Assembly: GCA_944323045.1 (NCBI GenBank)
Contig: CALUQX010000017.1
Coordinates: forward strand, 1-61,853
Direction: 5' to 3'
DNA length: 61,853 bases
DNA from: Candidatus Gastranaerophilales bacterium
GTDB lineage: Bacteria; Cyanobacteriota; Vampirovibrionia; Gastranaerophilales; Gastranaerophilaceae
Position numbers and translations under genes: made by a program
Part shown: positions 53,824 through 61,612 of the stretch, piece after piece
Layout of the letters: each line of letters opens with the position of its first letter
How positions within the stretch are numbered: position 1 is the stretch's first letter
Notes under the pieces: model-generated
Database searches by the model: none
Seen by the model: only the letters and a program-made list of their open reading frames with translations
What the model was told of the DNA's origin: nothing

Positions 53824-53896
<73 letters not shown>

Positions 53897-53897
<1 letters not shown>

Positions 53898-53938
53898 AAT
53901 AATAATAGGACAGAATAAATTCTGTCCTATTATTATTT
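53897..53938 (+). terminator. Terminator hairpin after tRNA-Arg
   Basis: A near-perfect 20-bp stem (AAATAATAATAGGACAGAAT and its complement) directly after the tRNA. Confidence 0.75.
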
Positions 53939-53975
53939 GCATTGGTATAGATTCAAACGCGTATGTGCGTTCGGA

Positions 53976-54102
53976 GGATTTTGGCAAGTGCGCCGTGTGA
54001 GCACAGCGAACCCAGCACGTCCTAATGAGAAAGTCTACGAAACGATAAAATTGCTATGCAATTTTAGAGTTGAGTACTAGACTTTCGAATTGCCAATAAT
54101 CC
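53976..54102. repeat. Palindromic repeat segment with terminal inverted repeats
   Basis: GGATTTTGGCAA (53976-53987) is mirrored by TTGCCAATAATCC (54090-54102). Inside, GAAAGTCTA (54029-54037) pairs with TAGACTTTC (54078-54086), and AAAATTGC-TAT-GCAATTTTA forms a tip hairpin. The left half recurs at 61533-61612. It looks like a small non-autonomous element or a structured RNA/DNA repeat. Confidence 0.65.
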
Positions 54103-54121
54103 GATTAATCGCATCCAGGGT

Positions 54122-54160
54122 AGATAAGACAGGATGACTTTTGTTATCCTGTCTTATTTA
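54122..54160 (+). terminator. Terminator hairpin after att copy 2
   Basis: AAGACAGGATGAC pairs with GTTATCCTGTCTT, with A/T-rich stem extensions and a T-rich end. Confidence 0.7.
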
Positions 54161-54187: not shown

Positions 54188-54310
54188 GCGTTCGAGCGGA
54201 TTTCCGTACGGACGACACGAGCGCAAGCGAGTTAGTCCGGATAGCGAGGATATTGAGCCTGCTAAGCCGTCAGGCTTAAAGGCGAAACTATTCGAGCGTG
54301 GAGGAAATCC
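54188..54310 (+). repeat. GC-rich dispersed repeat, copy in the stacked att region
   Basis: The 64 bp from 54188 to 54251 (GCGTTCGAGCGG... to ...GCGAGGAT) recur at 61473-61536 with about two differences. A diverged copy is at 38764-38966 in reverse. It is richer in G+C than its neighbours and spans no convincing gene. Confidence 0.75.
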
Positions 54311-54344
54311 AAGACAATCGCATCCAGGGTATTTTTTATTGCAA

Positions 54345-54418
54345 AATTGCTGTAGCTCAGCGGGATAAAGCATCTGCACATCTAAAGAGGGTCCCGCGTT
54401 CGAATCGCGGCAGGCGTA
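54345..54418 (+). pseudogene. Degenerate tRNA, Arg-like
   Basis: GTAGCTCAGCGGGATAAAGC is a D-arm and CCGCGTTCGAATCGCGG a perfect T-arm. The acceptor stem has two mismatches, however, and the anticodon stem (TCTGC against AAGAG) does not close. It may be the relic of a second tRNA carried in or split by integration. Confidence 0.6.
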
Positions 54419-54688
54419 TTTTTTTGTGCAAAAAATCGTCAGAGTCGCAAAAAAGTTGCAAATTATTTTTGAATGACATTTAAGTCGTAACCTCTTTTGT
54501 GTAGCGAGTTTTAAGGTTTGTGAAATTGTTTTTGTATGTATTTATACTTGACAAGTTGAAAAATGCGACAGCGGACGCCGTAGCTACTCCATTTTAGACC
54601 ATAAAGAAATGATGTGGAAAGACTTTAAAATAAAAATACCCGCTTAAAATAAGCGAGTATAAATATGATTGCAATATACAAATTTTTA
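54419..54688. other. Spacer with no gene
   Basis: No gene seen. An imperfect ATACCCGCTTA/TAAGCGAGTAT hairpin (54637-54661) may end the leftward integrase relic. Confidence 0.35.
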
Positions 54689-55428
54689 TTATATCCCAAA
54701 TCTCACAATTTTTTCTTGTGCTTCAACAGTTGTATTTACTATGTTATTCAAGAGATTGACACACTTGTCATTAACTTCGGGTAATAAGTGAGTGTATAAG
54801 TCCATCGTCATTGTTATAGAAGCATGTCCTAATTGACTTTGAACATATTTCATTTGTGCCCCGTTAGCAAGAAGCAAGCTTGCGTATGTGTGTCTGAGGT
54901 CATGGAATCTTATTTCATCAATACCTGCACGCTTTAGAGCAGGTTTAAATCTTCTTTTTAGCATATTATTAGCGTCAAAGTGCAAGCCTTCACTATTAGG
55001 AAAAACTAAATCTAAATCACTATGAGGACAAGCTAAACGCCATTCTTTAAGGACTTTCGCTAATTCATTTGACATATCTACATACCTGATTTTATTTGTC
55101 TTTGGTGTTCCCACGCGGTCATGAGTATAATTTTTATCAACCTTGATTTTACCTTTTATCCAATTTATTGAGCTCCAGGTTAATCCCAAAAGCTCACCCT
55201 GTCTCATTCCTGTAAATAATGCGGTGAATAATAACGGATAAAAATCAGGGATAAATTTTTTTAGTTTTAGAAAGTAGTGCTTGAACTTCTTCTGTACACA
55301 GAGCACGAATCTTTTTATTCTTAACTTCTTTGAGCGATTTTACACGAGCAAGCGGGTCTCTTACCGCAATATCGCTGTCAATCATAAAATTATAAATCGC
55401 ACTTATGAATTTAACGTATTTTAATACA
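54689..55428 (-). pseudogene. Tyrosine integrase, truncated and frameshifted
   Basis: The C-terminal catalytic domain is whole: TGMRQGELLGL (Arg), FHDLRHTYASLL (HxxR), LGHAS and MDLYTH (Tyr). The preceding core-binding part (KFISAIYNFMIDSDIAVRDP, then KKIRALCTEEVQALL) reads in another frame and meets a stop just after an A7 run on the coding strand (55256-55262). One base less would rejoin the frames. No N-terminal arm is found: the fragment begins at the end of the PDZ gene. It is the likely relic of the island's integrase. Confidence 0.8.
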
Positions 55429-56167: not shown

Positions 56168-56288
56168 ATTTACCTTTCTTAACCACGCATAGTATTAGTC
56201 TTTAAAATCTCGATATACAAAAGATTAACACATATAAACGCACGTTCAGTTTGTTCCATTGATTTTATATTACCACGAAAATTGCAAT

Positions 56289-56504
56289 ATGAGTAAAAAA
56301 GATTTACAAAAGTTTGGTAAGAGATTAAAATTTCTAAGGCTTGATAAAGAATTAACTCAGCTTGAACTTGCTGAAATTCTTGATATGTCCCCCAATTTTA
56401 TCGGAATGATTGAACGCGGAGAAAGAAATACAACTGTTGAAAATGTGTTTAAAATCGCAAGAGCCTTAGGAATTAAACCTTCTACTTTATTTGATGAACT
56501 TTAG
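56289..56504 (+). CDS. Small XRE regulator of the island
   Basis: 71 residues from the ATG at 56289 (MSKKDLQKFGKRLKFLR); nine upstream codons are unlikely to be used. A single HTH (ELTQLELAEILDMSPNFIGMIERGERNTTVENVFKIARAL), like C proteins and phage repressors. It is close to the ATPase-methyltransferase pair and could control it. Divergent from the PDZ gene and convergent, with a 4-bp overlap, with the next small gene. Confidence 0.82.
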   Translation: MSKKDLQKFGKRLKFLRLDKELTQLELAEILDMSPNFIGMIERGERNTTVENVFKIARALGIKPSTLFDEL

Positions 56505-56722
56505 GTCTGCAAAATGTTTATCGCTTTTTGTAGCTTTTTGTTTAATGTTCTGAAAAGTATGTAATAATCGTCTTTGTCTTTATTGAGTTGTAATTCTTCA
56601 TCAATAATCTCTGAATCACTAGCAAGGGCGCCTAACTTAATGAACACTTGTAAATCGTATAAAATCATTCTTGCGTTTGATAGTTTGTTTTCTAATAAAT
56701 TTAATGCGTTTTTATCGCACAT
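56501..56722 (-). CDS. Small helical protein, intact paralogue
   Basis: 73 residues, helical, no membrane segment. KLSNARMILYDLQVFIKLGALASDSEI and the following acidic DEELQLNKDKDDYY are shared with the broken gene at 56852-57066. Function unknown; small helical proteins of this kind are common in integrated elements. Confidence 0.58.
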   Translation of the reverse strand: MCDKNALNLLENKLSNARMILYDLQVFIKLGALASDSEIIDEELQLNKDKDDYYILFRTLNKKLQKAINILQT

Positions 56723-56851: not shown

Positions 56852-57066
56852 TTAATCAAAGAGCAAATGTTCAATTCTGTGAATAAGATTTACTGCTTGT
56901 TTTAATGCAAAATAATATTCTAAGTTATCTTGCATTTTTAATTCATCATCACATATATATAAGAATCCGAGGCTAATGCCCCAACCCTTGTTAAACACTT
57001 AACCTCTAATAAAATGAGACCAACCTCTTGCATTATTTTTCCCTGTGCCACATTAACTTCTACCAT
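56852..57066 (-). pseudogene. Frameshifted paralogue of the 56501 gene
   Basis: It starts with a strong GGAGG site and MVEVNVAQGKIMQEVGLILL, and reaches RVGALASDS like its neighbour. The frame then breaks in a TATATATATG tract near 56957-56966. In the shifted frame homology goes on (DDELKMQDNLEYYFALKQAVN) to a stop at 56852-56854. Two bases fewer in the TA run would restore it. A slippage-prone run could also switch the gene on and off. Confidence 0.65.
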
Positions 57067-57231
57067 TCTTCCTCCTTTAAAATCGCAAAGAATCAATTTT
57101 ATCGAGAAAGAAATCAAGTAAACGCATACAGTTAGAAATGTTTGCAAAAGTTAGTCAAGTTATATGTTTAATTTTTCTTTATAAAAAACAAGAATATTAA
57201 TTTTCGATTATAATATTAACAGAGGTAATAC

Positions 57232-59028
57232 ATGGAATTAATAGATAAACTTTCTCAAAAATTTAATAGTGGACAGTATGATAATTTTATTACAGAAATA
57301 AATTTGCCATACTTTAAAAATATTAAGGTAGGTACAAAAATTAATTTTACATTCCCTCTCACTGTTTTAATTGGGCAAAATGGATGCGGTAAAAGTTCAT
57401 GTTTACAAGCTATAAAAGGATGCCCAAGAGGAAATATGCCAAGTGAGTATTGGTTTTCAACACCAATTGATGAAATTAAAGAGAAAAATGTTTCAGCATA
57501 CTATGACAAAATTACAAAAGTATGGCCTACAATTTTTTATAGATATAAAAAAGCAAATGAAGAATATCAAGTCTTGTACCAGGCTGTTTATAGAAAGGAC
57601 AACCCAGATTATTGGGAAGCTCGTATTCCTGTAAAAGCTTATGGAATGACTAACACAAAAAGACATGATAACATTGTAAAAGATGTAATATATTTGGATT
57701 TTAGAGGTGAATTAAGTGCTTTCGATAAATATTTTTATTTTGGAGAAAAGCATACAAAGAAAAACATAAAAGCAAATAAAAAACAAGATTATTTGAGAAT
57801 TCAGGGACAAAAATTAAAAAAAGTTTTTGAGCAGTCAAAAAGGTATATTGTTCCTCGTTCAGACAAAAAACGTTTTTACAACGAGCTACCTGTCGAATTT
57901 TCAAAAGAAGTTTTGAATCATATAAACAAAATTCTAGGGAAAGATTATAAAAGTGCTAAATTGGTATACCATCATTTATTCGAGAGTTATGGAGCTTCTA
58001 TTTTATTTAAAACTTCAAATATGAATTACTCTGAAGCATTTGCAGGTAGTGGAGAAATGTCAGCGTCAATACTTGTATATAATGTACTTAATGCACAAAA
58101 AGATTCTTTGATATTATTAGATGAGCCCGAAGTTTCTCTACACCCATTAGCACAAGAAAAATTAAGAGAATTCTTGTTGGAACAAGCTCTCGCAAAGAAT
58201 TTACAAATAATTGTTTCTACACATTCCCCAAGTTTTGTTAATGGATTACCTAAAGAAGCTATAAAAGTATTCAGAGAAGACTCGGATGGCTCTTTTGAAG
58301 TTTTACAGAACATGTCTTGTGAATCTGCTTTTAATATCGTTGGCTTTAAATTTTCTACATCAAAAAATATTTTAGTTGAAGATATTTTAGCAAAAAAAAT
58401 TTTAGAAGCTGTAATTAAAAAATATAGTGGTGAAAACCCAGCTCTTGAAAATATAGAAATAAATTTTAATCCAGGAGGTGCTGAGGAATTATATAAAGAT
58501 GCAGAGCGTATAATTAGATGTGGGGCAAATGTTTCAAACAATACTTATATTGTTTTGGATGGTGATAAATATAGGGAAGATTTTCAAGATTATAATCAAT
58601 GGGTACAATCTGATATAACATTACAAAATATAAATGAACATATAAAAAATGTTACTAATATATCAGATTCTAAAATTTTCCCAGCAGATTCTAATCAAAG
58701 CAATGATGTATCAATAAAACAAAGAAAAGAGTTTATTGACTACGGAAGAAACAATATAATGTATATGTTAAGAATTGAGCCTGAGAAAATTATATGGGAT
58801 GAAAATGTATGCAAGCAATGTCTTGAATACTCTGGAGTGTTTGATATTGAACAAACACAGCAAATGATTACTAATGAACAAAGTTACAAACAAAAGTTTA
58901 AAATTTTATCAGAAAAATCTGGTATCAATGTGAGTGAATTAGAATCTAATTTTGTAAAACGCTGGATAAATTCTGATAACGGTAGCATTTCACAAATAAA
59001 AGTAACGATTTTAGATAAAATAGTCTAG
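57232..59028 (+). CDS. OLD-like ATPase with TOPRIM-type C-terminal domain
   Basis: 598 residues. Walker A is IGQNGCGKSSC (about 47-57), the ABC-like signature region is FAGSGEMSAS, Walker B is SLILLDEPEVSLHP (about 290-304), and the H-switch is VSTHSPSFV (about 326). After residue 370 a TOPRIM-like core appears: ILVEDILAKKILEAV (acidic at about 382) and YIVLDGDKY (DxD at about 441). OLD proteins are ATP-controlled nucleases, as in Gabija GajA. It lies 41 bp ahead of a DNA methyltransferase, so the two probably act together. AT-rich, island-borne. Confidence 0.83.
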   Translation: MELIDKLSQKFNSGQYDNFITEINLPYFKNIKVGTKINFTFPLTVLIGQNGCGKSSCLQAIKGCPRGNMPSEYWFSTPIDEIKEKNVSAYYDKITKVWPTIFYRYKKANEEYQVLYQAVYRKDNPDYWEARIPVKAYGMTNTKRHDNIVKDVIYLDFRGELSAFDKYFYFGEKHTKKNIKANKKQDYLRIQGQKLKKVFEQSKRYIVPRSDKKRFYNELPVEFSKEVLNHINKILGKDYKSAKLVYHHLFESYGASILFKTSNMNYSEAFAGSGEMSASILVYNVLNAQKDSLILLDEPEVSLHPLAQEKLREFLLEQALAKNLQIIVSTHSPSFVNGLPKEAIKVFREDSDGSFEVLQNMSCESAFNIVGFKFSTSKNILVEDILAKKILEAVIKKYSGENPALENIEINFNPGGAEELYKDAERIIRCGANVSNNTYIVLDGDKYREDFQDYNQWVQSDITLQNINEHIKNVTNISDSKIFPADSNQSNDVSIKQRKEFIDYGRNNIMYMLRIEPEKIIWDENVCKQCLEYSGVFDIEQTQQMITNEQSYKQKFKILSEKSGINVSELESNFVKRWINSDNGSISQIKVTILDKIV

Positions 59029-59069
59029 TCTTTCACTTTATGTGTTAAAATTTCTATAGAGGGCAAAAC

Positions 59070-60125
59070 ATGTCAAAGAAAAAAATTAAAGTTTTTGATT
59101 TTTTTTCTGGTTGCGGAGGAACTGCACAAGGTTTCAAGCAAGCTGGTCTTGACATTGTTGTAGGTATAGATAATGACAAAGATGCTTCAGAAACATATAA
59201 ATACAATATTAAGCCCGAACTATTTATAAATGACGATATTAGACAAATAAAGACAGATTCTATAAGTGCTTATGTTAATAAGTATAAAAAAAATAGTTAT
59301 ATTTTATTTTGTGGTTGTGCACCATGTCAGCCATTTTCTAGTCAAAACAAAAAAAGATTTTCAAAAGATGATAAACGTTTTTCTCTTTTAGATGAGTTTT
59401 CAAGATTCGTTGAAAGGCATGAACCAGATTTTATATTTTTTGAAAATGTTCCTGGTATGAAAAAACTCAAGCCAAAAGAATCACCATTATATAAATTTGA
59501 GAAGAAATTAAAAATAATGGGATACAATGTTTGCGGTCCTCAAATAGTCTGTGCTGAAGAATATGGTGTTCCTCAAAAGAGAAGACGTTTAATATTGATT
59601 GCAAGTAAATTAGGTAAAATAAATTTCCCAGAAGCAACACATGGTCCAGATTGTGAACAGGATTATATTACAGTAAGAGAGGCTATTTATTTCTTACCAA
59701 AACTTGCTGCAGGTCAAGAAAGTAAGCAATATTTAAATCATAAAGCTGCAAAATTATCAGATATTAATTTAAAAAGACTAAAAGTTATTAATGAAGGCGA
59801 AAGTATATCAAAGTGTATTGGAGACTTATCATTGCAATGTCATATAAATCATAAAGGGCATAGTGATGTTTATGGACGTTTAAAGTGGGATGAACCATCA
59901 GTCACTTTAACCACGAAATGTACAAGTTTCTCAAATGGAAGATTTGGGCATCCAGAGCAGGATAGGGCATTAACGCCTCGCGAGGCTGCTTGTCTTCAAT
60001 CTTTCCCATTAGATTTTGAATTTAAAGGGTCTGGAGTGACTTCCTGGGGAAAACAAGTGGGAAATGCTGTGCCTGTAAAATTGGCGGAAGCATTTGGATT
60101 GAACTATAAGAATTATATTAAATAA
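59070..60125 (+). CDS. DNA (cytosine-5) methyltransferase
   Basis: 351 residues, a complete C5 enzyme. Motif I DFFSGCGGTAQGF (from residue 9), motif IV with catalytic Cys GCAPCQPFSS (about 83-92), ENV motif VI (FFENVPGM), VIII QKRRRLILIAS, a short target-recognition region (about 180-280), IX LTPREAACLQSFP and X GNAVPVKLAEAFG. It modifies cytosine in an unknown site. No classical restriction endonuclease is adjacent; the OLD-like gene upstream is the only nuclease candidate. Confidence 0.95.
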   Translation: MSKKKIKVFDFFSGCGGTAQGFKQAGLDIVVGIDNDKDASETYKYNIKPELFINDDIRQIKTDSISAYVNKYKKNSYILFCGCAPCQPFSSQNKKRFSKDDKRFSLLDEFSRFVERHEPDFIFFENVPGMKKLKPKESPLYKFEKKLKIMGYNVCGPQIVCAEEYGVPQKRRRLILIASKLGKINFPEATHGPDCEQDYITVREAIYFLPKLAAGQESKQYLNHKAAKLSDINLKRLKVINEGESISKCIGDLSLQCHINHKGHSDVYGRLKWDEPSVTLTTKCTSFSNGRFGHPEQDRALTPREAACLQSFPLDFEFKGSGVTSWGKQVGNAVPVKLAEAFGLNYKNYIK

Positions 60126-60130
60126 ATTAT

Positions 60131-61273
60131 TTACGTTCCTTCTTTTAAAACTTCCAAATACTCTTTATACGCAAAAGTTCTATTTCTGCTTTGAGTTGAA
60201 GTTTGTTCAAGGACACCGATACTAGTCAGGTCTTTGACTATGCTTGACATTGTGTTAAATGCTATATCAAGCTCTCTGGCTGTTTTTTGAATTTCAATAA
60301 TAGGATTTGATTCTAAGTATTCAAATACTCGCATAGCATTTTTAGCTTTGCGTCCCAAGCCTTTGATTTTCAGACAATAGTTATCATGCAGAGAAGTTAA
60401 TTTATCAATCGTTTCAACGGCGTCTTTTGCTGATTCATAAACGGCTTCCAAGAAAAATTTAATCCATTGTTCATAGTTACCTTTTGAACGCACTTCATTC
60501 ATTCTGTCATAATATTCAATCCTATTCTTTTTCAAGAAATAAGAAATATACAATGCAGGTGTGCTTAAAACTTTATTTTTCATTAAAAATAAAGTAATCA
60601 AAAGTCGCCCGATTCTACCGTTACCGTCTAAAAACGGGTGAATAGTTTCAAATTGATAATGAATTAAGCCTGCTCTAATTAAAACATCAAGTTCATCATC
60701 AGCATTAATATATTTTTCTAAATCAGACATTGCTTGAATCATATCTTCAACAGATGGTGGAATATAGCGGGCATTTTGCAAATTACACCCTGTGGCACCT
60801 ATCCAGTTTTGAGAATGCCTGAATTCACCGGGACTTTTATTTTGTCCTCTAACTCCCGATAATAAAACTTCATGTGCTTCTTTTATTAGGCGATTACACA
60901 ATGGTAATTCTTTCAATCTATTAATTGCATAATCAGTTGCTTTTATGTAGTTTACAACATCTCCGACAGGTCTGTTTGTGTTTTCTTCCAAGCACGGGTC
61001 TAGTACATCTTCTAAAGTAGCCTGAGTCCCTTCAATTTGTGAGGACATAAGAGCTTCTTTTCTCACATACATAGAAATAAATAAATGAATATTAGGAATT
61101 CTGCTTGAAATTCCTTCAAGTAATGCAAGCTGCTTATTAGCTTTTACTAATAAATCTACAATATCTTTATCAAGTTCTATTGGCGGATTAGGCGGCAAAA
61201 CTGATGGTATAAATGATTTATAAGCCATTTCTCCTGATAAATTATTTTTGTATGTTCCTGCTCTATTATTCAT
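60131..61273 (-). CDS. Fic-domain protein with C-terminal winged helix
   Basis: 380 residues. A Fic_N-type start (LPPNPPIELDKDIVDLLVKAN) holds the inhibitory helix motif SSQIEG (about 77-82), which blocks the active site in class II Fic proteins. The Fic motif HPFLDGNGRIGR (about 212-223) is complete, so AMP transfer to a target protein is expected. The last 90 residues are a winged-helix DNA-binding region. Tail to tail with the methyltransferase, 5 bp apart. A perfect inverted repeat upstream suggests self-repression. Confidence 0.9.
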   Translation of the reverse strand: MNNRAGTYKNNLSGEMAYKSFIPSVLPPNPPIELDKDIVDLLVKANKQLALLEGISSRIPNIHLFISMYVRKEALMSSQIEGTQATLEDVLDPCLEENTNRPVGDVVNYIKATDYAINRLKELPLCNRLIKEAHEVLLSGVRGQNKSPGEFRHSQNWIGATGCNLQNARYIPPSVEDMIQAMSDLEKYINADDELDVLIRAGLIHYQFETIHPFLDGNGRIGRLLITLFLMKNKVLSTPALYISYFLKKNRIEYYDRMNEVRSKGNYEQWIKFFLEAVYESAKDAVETIDKLTSLHDNYCLKIKGLGRKAKNAMRVFEYLESNPIIEIQKTARELDIAFNTMSSIVKDLTSIGVLEQTSTQSRNRTFAYKEYLEVLKEGT

Positions 61274-61472: not shown

Positions 61473-61612
61473 GCGTTCGAGCGGATTTCCGTACGGACGC
61501 CACGAGCGCAAGCGAGTTAGTCCAGATAGCGAGGATTTTGGCAAGTGCGTCGTGTGAGAACAGCGCACCCAGCGCGTCCTAATGTGAAAGTCTACAAAAC
61601 GATAAAATTGCT
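61473..61612 (+). repeat. GC-rich repeat at the right edge of the island
   Basis: 61473-61536 matches 54188-54251. From 61533 on, sequence matching the palindromic segment at 53976-54055 follows (GGATTTTGGCAAGTGCG...). The two repeat types seen separately near the tRNA are thus joined here, so this may be the fuller form. The region 61274-61701 holds no gene otherwise. Confidence 0.72.

Follow-up and report, generated by a model that had tools for sequence, protein, structure and literature searches.

A C5 cytosine methyltransferase as near-obligate genomic partner of an OLD-type ATPase-TOPRIM protein family

In contig CALUQX010000017.1 of a Candidatus Gastranaerophilales bacterium (assembly GCA_944323045.1), positions 1 to 61,853 of which make up the window analyzed here, a gene for an OLD-type ABC ATPase-TOPRIM protein (57232..59028, plus strand; an intact open reading frame (ORF) of 598 amino acids (aa)) is followed after 41 bp, on the same strand, by a gene for a C5 cytosine DNA methyltransferase (MTase; 59070..60125, plus strand; an intact ORF of 351 aa). 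A search for relatives of the ATPase shows the pairing to be near-obligate, with a C5 MTase gene at 64 of 65 loci. The two genes probably form a functional unit, and the likeliest role of the ATPase is that of effector arm in a defence system based on C5 methylation. A first-pass annotation, made from the sequence alone, had proposed the two genes as a candidate defence pair; the ORF calls and a match to PF00145 agree with its call of a full cytosine methyltransferase 41 bp downstream of the ATPase, and occurrence of the pair across genomes, a point it had raised, proved to be conserved.

Co-occurrence, co-divergence and transfer of the pair

We searched 84,980 genomes and 2.9 million viral contigs with patterns describing only the ATPase; with two weak matches dropped and redundancy above 90% removed, 65 loci remained (loci and relatives' genomes are coded L### and G### below). 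At one locus the flanking DNA retrieved, which was at most 5 kb per locus, shows no C5 MTase gene, and this locus is cut by a contig end. The MTase gene is directly adjacent in 40 of the 65, with the ATPase gene first in 22, the MTase gene first in 15, and convergent orientation in 3, and the genes of several pairs overlap by 4 bp (e.g. L047, L049, L050 and L062). When a strict two-gene unit is defined as a same-strand run in which any further ORF is shorter than 120 aa, 25 of the 65 loci qualify. The C5 MTase as sole partner, as first proposed, thus describes the two-gene form, while many other relatives add restriction effectors. By the same MTase profile, a C5 MTase was found at none of 28 control loci, some of them with short flanks: 20 code for other OLD-like TOPRIM proteins and belong to the window's class, and 8 are plasmid loci of HEC-04-like proteins.

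The 65 loci come from about 15 phyla: Bacteroidota, Bacillota, Pseudomonadota, Spirochaetota, Fibrobacterota, Cyanobacteriota, Planctomycetota, Verrucomicrobiota, Gemmatimonadota, Acidobacteriota, Lentisphaerota, Bdellovibrionota, Thermodesulfobacteriota, Ignavibacteriota and Patescibacteria. Prophage contigs are also represented, and in three of them (L082, L086 and L088) the ATPase gene stands just behind an S24/CI-type repressor. Viral contigs searched with the single ATPase protein gave no relatives, but a four-sequence alignment did retrieve them; no close relative was found in INPHARED (named phages) or PLSDB (plasmids). Prevalence, measured within the window's own lineage, is 3 in 383 genomes for the family and 2 in 292 genomes for the phylum. 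The pairs nearest to that of the window are in genomes of the same bacterial family: G233 and G469, both of another genus, have both genes in the same order, with ATPases 73% and 62% identical, respectively, to that of the window and MTases 82-83% identical. In G523, a cyanobacterium of another family, the gene order is opposite and the genes overlap by 4 bp.

The two proteins have diverged together. For 44 non-redundant pairs, ATPase and MTase distances correlate with a Mantel r of 0.66, the maximum of 2000 permutations being 0.16. The pair is also carried as a unit of transfer, because DNA homology stops at its borders: by blastn, positions 57168..60109 (plus strand) show 75% continuous DNA homology to the G233 relative, starting 64 bp upstream of the ATPase gene and ending inside the last MTase codons, and outside the pair, matches to the G233 DNA are confined to the integrase and a short part of the XRE gene. 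Homology to the G469 relative falls into two blastn blocks, 57201-58569 and 58987-60119, separated by non-homologous DNA at 58570..58986 (plus strand), a stretch of the TOPRIM half that follows the DGD motif. The copies of G233 and G469 (L018 and L019) are 83% identical to each other in the N-terminal half, 42% in the C-terminal half and 94% in the MTase, a contrast that points to an exchange in which part of the nuclease half was swapped and the ATPase half and MTase were retained. The swapped part of the TOPRIM half, this pattern suggests, is under separate, probably antagonistic, selection.

Domain structure and predicted active site

The MTase matches Pfam PF00145 (1.1e-60), NCBIfam TIGR00675 (5.9e-48) and PADLOC MTase_II (4e-92), and an alignment of four sequences shows motif I FDFFSGCGG, motif IV PCQ with C86, ENV, QKRRR and GNAVP. 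The gene encodes a complete C5 cytosine methyltransferase.

For the ATPase protein, Pfam and NCBIfam name only generic ATPase families (Pfam AAA_15 at 1.9e-21, AAA_21 at 5.5e-19). Its best PADLOC match is HEC-04 (3.2e-38), followed by NsnB, AriA, retron ATPase-Toprim (ATPase-Toprim_I-B), PtuA, Old and GajA. The matches listed, from Pfam and from the top 25 each of PADLOC and NCBIfam, include no restriction-endonuclease family. An AlphaFold2 (AF2) model of the whole protein, built from 55 aligned relatives, has a predicted local distance difference test score (pLDDT) of 91.3, and its best Foldseek match in PDB is TsOLD (6p74; E 1.6e-12), followed by GajA of the GajA-GajB complex and by retron Eco8.

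The ABC ATPase half covers residues 1-371 (57232..58344, plus strand), with Walker A at residues 48-56, a signature-like AGSGE at 271-275, Walker B DE at 297-298 and the H-switch histidine H331, plus a family signature, DFRGEL.AFDKYFYF, at residues 156-170. These motifs are invariant or near-invariant in alignment A4 (55 sequences); G48, N50, G51 and K54 of Walker A, D297-E298 and H331 are identical in all relatives aligned, in agreement with the OLD-type Walker and H-switch motifs of the first reading. Structural alignment of this half by VIA-align gives Z-scores (Z) of 16-19 against the heads of SMC, Rad50 and PtuA, and 16.3 against AriA.

The Pfam scan left a TOPRIM domain undetected in the C-terminal half, and the Pfam OLD-like TOPRIM model gave no match. 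This half (residues 372-598; 58345..59025, plus strand) was folded alone, since one domain can dominate the match list of a whole-protein structure. The isolated AF2 model is confident (pLDDT 95.6, predicted template modelling score 0.90), and the first 20 PDB rows returned by VIA-align are all TOPRIM domains of OLD, Gabija, PARIS or retron proteins. AriB of PARIS ranks first at Z 10.1 (160 residues, 3.9 A) and appears again at 9.0; next are the OLD proteins of B. pseudomallei (BpOLD, 8.8) and Xanthomonas (XccOLD, 8.3), TsOLD (7.3), GajA (6.3) and retrons Eco2 (6.2) and Eco8 (5.9), with the first unrelated row at 5.3. Foldseek matches of the same half are weak, the best being Xanthomonas OLD at E 3.7e-3, and the TOPRIM call therefore rests on alignment, ranking and residues together. 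The motif residues of this half are E383-D384, G415-G416, D443-G444-D445, E518 and K553, and E383, D384, G416, D443, G444, D445, P517, E518 and K553 are identical in 55 of 55 sequences. With these invariant residues, the predicted structure confirms a TOPRIM fold for the C-terminal half, where the first-pass annotation had seen a TOPRIM-like acidic core.

Six active-site side chains of BpOLD were considered: E400, E404, D455, D457, E508 and K562 (PMC6755086). Five of the six have invariant counterparts in the window protein (E400 as E383, D455 as D443, D457 as D445, E508 as E518 and K562 as K553), and the sixth, E404, falls on an alanine, a correspondence drawn from sequence order and spacing rather than from a superposed active site. 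The protein is a predicted nuclease.

Other effectors, larger operons and the tRNA island

The two-gene form is one architecture among several for this ATPase. Related MTases adjoin other effectors, and some of those effectors are also found together with the ATPase, so C5 MTases seem to draw on a set of effectors that can replace one another, of which the ATPase is one, and it can also be combined with the others. The closest other MTases in the same bacterial family, 58-61% identical, have neighbors that differ from the OLD-type ATPase: in one set an unnamed protein of 641-658 aa with DUF6339 and Vsr, in another HEF_HK/GHKL with Response_reg_2 and Vsr. The first set belongs to a recurrent Gastranaerophilales cassette (L163, L164 and L166-L169) of C5 MTase, a 72 aa ORF, the 641-658 aa protein, a protein of about 298 aa, DUF6339 and Vsr, in which Pfam names only DUF6339 and Vsr; a stretch of the unnamed protein, NLAREICQNSLDA, looks like a GHKL N-box. 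In flavobacteria the HEF_HK/GHKL and Response_reg_2 genes lie between MTase and ATPase, and a four-gene operon of this type (L021, L025, L028, L033 and L048) consists of C5 MTase, a HEF_HK/GHKL protein of about 960-1000 aa, a Response_reg_2 protein of about 550-600 aa and the OLD-type ATPase. The middle two genes resemble a two-component pair set within a restriction operon.

Further combinations include GHKL/MORC-type ATPases together with the OLD-type ATPase (L020, L029, L036, L038 and L039, with a Z1 helicase in L038). An HpaII endonuclease is found at L040, the only locus where Pfam types it, and the operons of L053 and L055 are similar; all three have two C5 MTases and an unnamed protein of about 210 aa, with the OLD-type ATPase gene immediately following that of the endonuclease. 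Elsewhere we find a BsaWI-like protein (L045), Mrr with a McrB-type AAA protein (L056), a McrB/LlaJI-like system (L067), a UvrD-PDDEXK protein (L063), an HNH protein (L080) and, at several loci, Vsr. At L032 a helicase and an MZB protein resemble DrmAB of DISARM, by our own reading and with no database assignment.

In the window itself no usual restriction endonuclease gene adjoins the pair, as first noted. The pair lies on an island whose integration target is a tRNA-Arg (TCT) gene found by ARAGORN at 53824..53897 (plus strand). A repeat search finds three copies of the tRNA 3' end in a row (53882-53902, 54107-54127 and 54316-54336), apparent marks of repeated integrations at one tRNA with short remnants between them. 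A tRNA-like sequence at 54350-54420 (gctgtagctcagc...gttcgaatcgcggcaggcgta), not accepted by ARAGORN, looks decayed or island-borne. After the tRNA the island continues with the 3'-end copies, a truncated integrase, a PDZ protein, an XRE gene and a small convergent ORF. The integrase is the C-terminal part of a tyrosine integrase, 205 aa long (54689..55306, minus strand; PF00589, 3.3e-30; blastn match 54738-55397), truncated relative to the 368-aa integrase of G233 (L015 9857-10963). Repeats 93-96% identical stand at both island ends, one of 82 nt (53974-54055 and 61531-61612) and one of 68 nt (54188-54255 and 61473-61540); they also occur near the boundary in G234 and may be border repeats or genome-wide ones.

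The region 57.1-61.4 kb is an exchangeable cargo slot, because the same backbone carries different cargo in G234 and G397: there, copies of the XRE gene and of the small ORF, about 92% identical in DNA, are accompanied by DUF5677, GmrSD_N, HEPN and a different C5 MTase in place of the pair. This cassette (L172 and L173) thus sits on the window's island backbone. The XRE regulator (56259..56504, plus strand; PF01381) has copies 81-96% identical in several genomes without the ATPase and is itself part of the backbone. Of the tRNA island with XRE and Fic genes first described, every element is present, but the XRE gene falls outside the pair. We considered the XRE protein as controller of the pair and rejected this, since the gene is backbone in genomes lacking the pair; its PADLOC match to restriction control proteins (5e-15) is real, and C-box-like sites show no enrichment (with one mismatch allowed, 8 against an expectation of 11.3). 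Small ORFs at 56501-56722 and 56938-57147 (minus strand), L015 3497-3697 and L016 9081-9281 have a common CALASDS/GALASDS motif; ORFs of this kind are convergent to XRE in all islands seen and belong to the backbone. The Fic/SoFic protein (60131..61273, minus strand; PF02661/PF13784; PADLOC SoFic, 5.5e-120) is separate cargo, and its gene is not beside the pair in G469 (L016 ORFs).

Relation to known systems and probable function

Published OLD classes comprise proteins acting alone, with a UvrD helicase, with a retron, or split in PARIS (PMC10568477, PMC6755086). The first-pass annotation had not recognised a pairing with a C5 MTase, and such a pairing is indeed missing from classes 1-4 as these papers describe them. 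The window protein has in common with class 1 (P2 Old, TsOLD) and class 2 (GajA) the order of ABC ATPase then TOPRIM and the active-site residues E, DxD, E and K (PMC6755086), and differs in its partner: none in class 1, a UvrD helicase in class 2 (Gabija), a C5 MTase here. No UvrD/PcrA/Rep-like helicase of the gajB kind lies beside the window pair, and among the loci typed by Pfam only L063 has a UvrD helicase upstream, L066 appearing similar by eye. In PARIS, AriA aligns to the ABC half and AriB to the TOPRIM half, but there the two are partner proteins (AriAB fusions also exist) without an MTase, in contrast to a single chain with an MTase; the PADLOC AriAB score is no more than 62 bits, against 129.5 for HEC-04. 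Type I-B retrons (Eco8, Eco2) likewise use an ATPase-TOPRIM effector in a defence system; no reverse transcriptase is among the window neighbors (XRE, MTase, Fic), although no Rfam search was made for msr/msd RNA. HEC-04, a PADLOC candidate family, is matched by all 55 members; for the window protein the match is 129.5 bits, over residues 220-452 only and with no cut-off supplied. Its plasmid-borne relatives of HEC-04-like type lack some 100 aa by comparison, have no C5 MTase neighbor, and score 87-151 bits on the new family's profile, where members mostly score over 400.

With Type II and MORC/GHKL restriction-modification (R-M) systems the module shares a C5 MTase as modification arm and surroundings of Vsr, GHKL ATPases and helicases, and in several phyla the ATPase is itself a member of operons of this kind. 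In Type II systems the MTase is linked to a nuclease gene, and the window MTase lies 41 bp from that of a predicted TOPRIM nuclease; the module differs in having no gene of restriction-endonuclease fold, its only predicted nuclease being the TOPRIM protein. The available text of a 2008 MORC paper describes operons of methylase, Vsr and GHKL and names no OLD-type protein in them (PMC2292703). The C5-MTase pairing seems to represent a design of R-M-like system that has not been described before. We did not find a C5 MTase partner of an OLD protein in the literature consulted; REBASE, Krishnan et al. 2020 (reportedly a survey of ABC ATPase neighborhoods, in Nucleic Acids Research, gkaa726) and Dot et al. 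2023 (Molecular Microbiology) may already list such neighbors.

We put at about one in two the probability that the pair is an R-M-like module in which an ATP-regulated OLD/TOPRIM nuclease acts on unmethylated invader DNA. The MTase would mark host DNA at a short motif, and a dimer of the ABC ATPase would control a two-metal TOPRIM nuclease, keeping it inactive on self DNA that carries the proper methylation and releasing it on invader DNA that lacks this mark, so that the OLD/TOPRIM enzyme would take the place of a PD-(D/E)XK nuclease. Computation shows the folds, the catalytic residues, the near-obligate pairing, the co-divergence and the carriage on a tRNA island and in prophages; that the protein acts as a nuclease, senses methylation and works against phages is inferred. 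More tentatively, the family may be a further OLD class with an obligate C5 MTase, whose ATP-gated TOPRIM would serve as a methylation-sensitive restriction nuclease with no PD-(D/E)XK, HNH or other classical nuclease.

Several observations weigh against restriction of unmethylated DNA by the OLD protein. No domain for the recognition of a specific DNA site could be identified in it. The metal-B site would differ from that of BpOLD, because BpOLD E404 is replaced by alanine (A387 in 52 of the 55 sequences). Partial correlations with MTase distance, 0.31 for the N-terminal half and 0.16 for the C-terminal half, separate the halves weakly. At many loci other restriction effectors are present, so the OLD protein is not the sole effector there. 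The closest TOPRIM by Z, AriB, is reported to cleave host tRNA (PMC12839542) rather than DNA.

The main rival, less probable but possible, is a role as back-up or suicide effector: on sensing a sign of phage infection, for instance an anti-restriction protein or the loss of methylation, the OLD protein would set its TOPRIM part to cutting host tRNA or DNA, as in PARIS beside R-M or BREX, and the MTase would be the guarded partner and not the self-marker for the nuclease. The two AriB rows include the highest structural score of the C-terminal half, the ATPase does occur inside complete restriction operons with nucleases of their own, and a 2026 survey places OLD-ABC/TOPRIM dyads near BREX-type systems as back-up effectors (PMC12839542). 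The margin of AriB over BpOLD is small, however, and a C5 MTase accompanies the ATPase at 64 of 65 loci, about 25 of which offer nothing else of a restriction system to be guarded; were the gene a general back-up, it should also turn up beside adenine methyltransferase systems, an expectation for which no survey was made. We consider it unlikely that the OLD protein is instead an accessory factor, an ATP-driven loader or a repair nuclease at failed or hemi-methylated sites, like Vsr with Dcm, and no defence effector. Vsr is a frequent companion, and OLD proteins were once proposed for DNA repair (PMC6755086), but the genes are carried on islands and prophages, two-gene units exist without any restriction gene, and the swapping of part of the TOPRIM half between close relatives fits an arms race better than it fits housekeeping repair. 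Defence islands gather unrelated systems, and a Fic gene is present here too, yet that two independent genes merely stand side by side is highly improbable given the MTase at nearly every unselected relative, both gene orders and co-divergence; the control loci, none with a C5 MTase, lead us to reject chance pairing.

More than 50 years after OLD nucleases became known, the control of the TOPRIM nuclease by the OLD ATPase and the means by which self is told from non-self are open questions in the field (PMC10568477). An MTase-bound OLD family offers a direct handle on the distinction of self from non-self, since methylation state can be set in the test tube. If the R-M-like reading is true, it would add an extra nuclease fold to the restriction arms, and would account for the "orphan" C5 methyltransferase that many genomes and prophages carry beside an "AAA ATPase".

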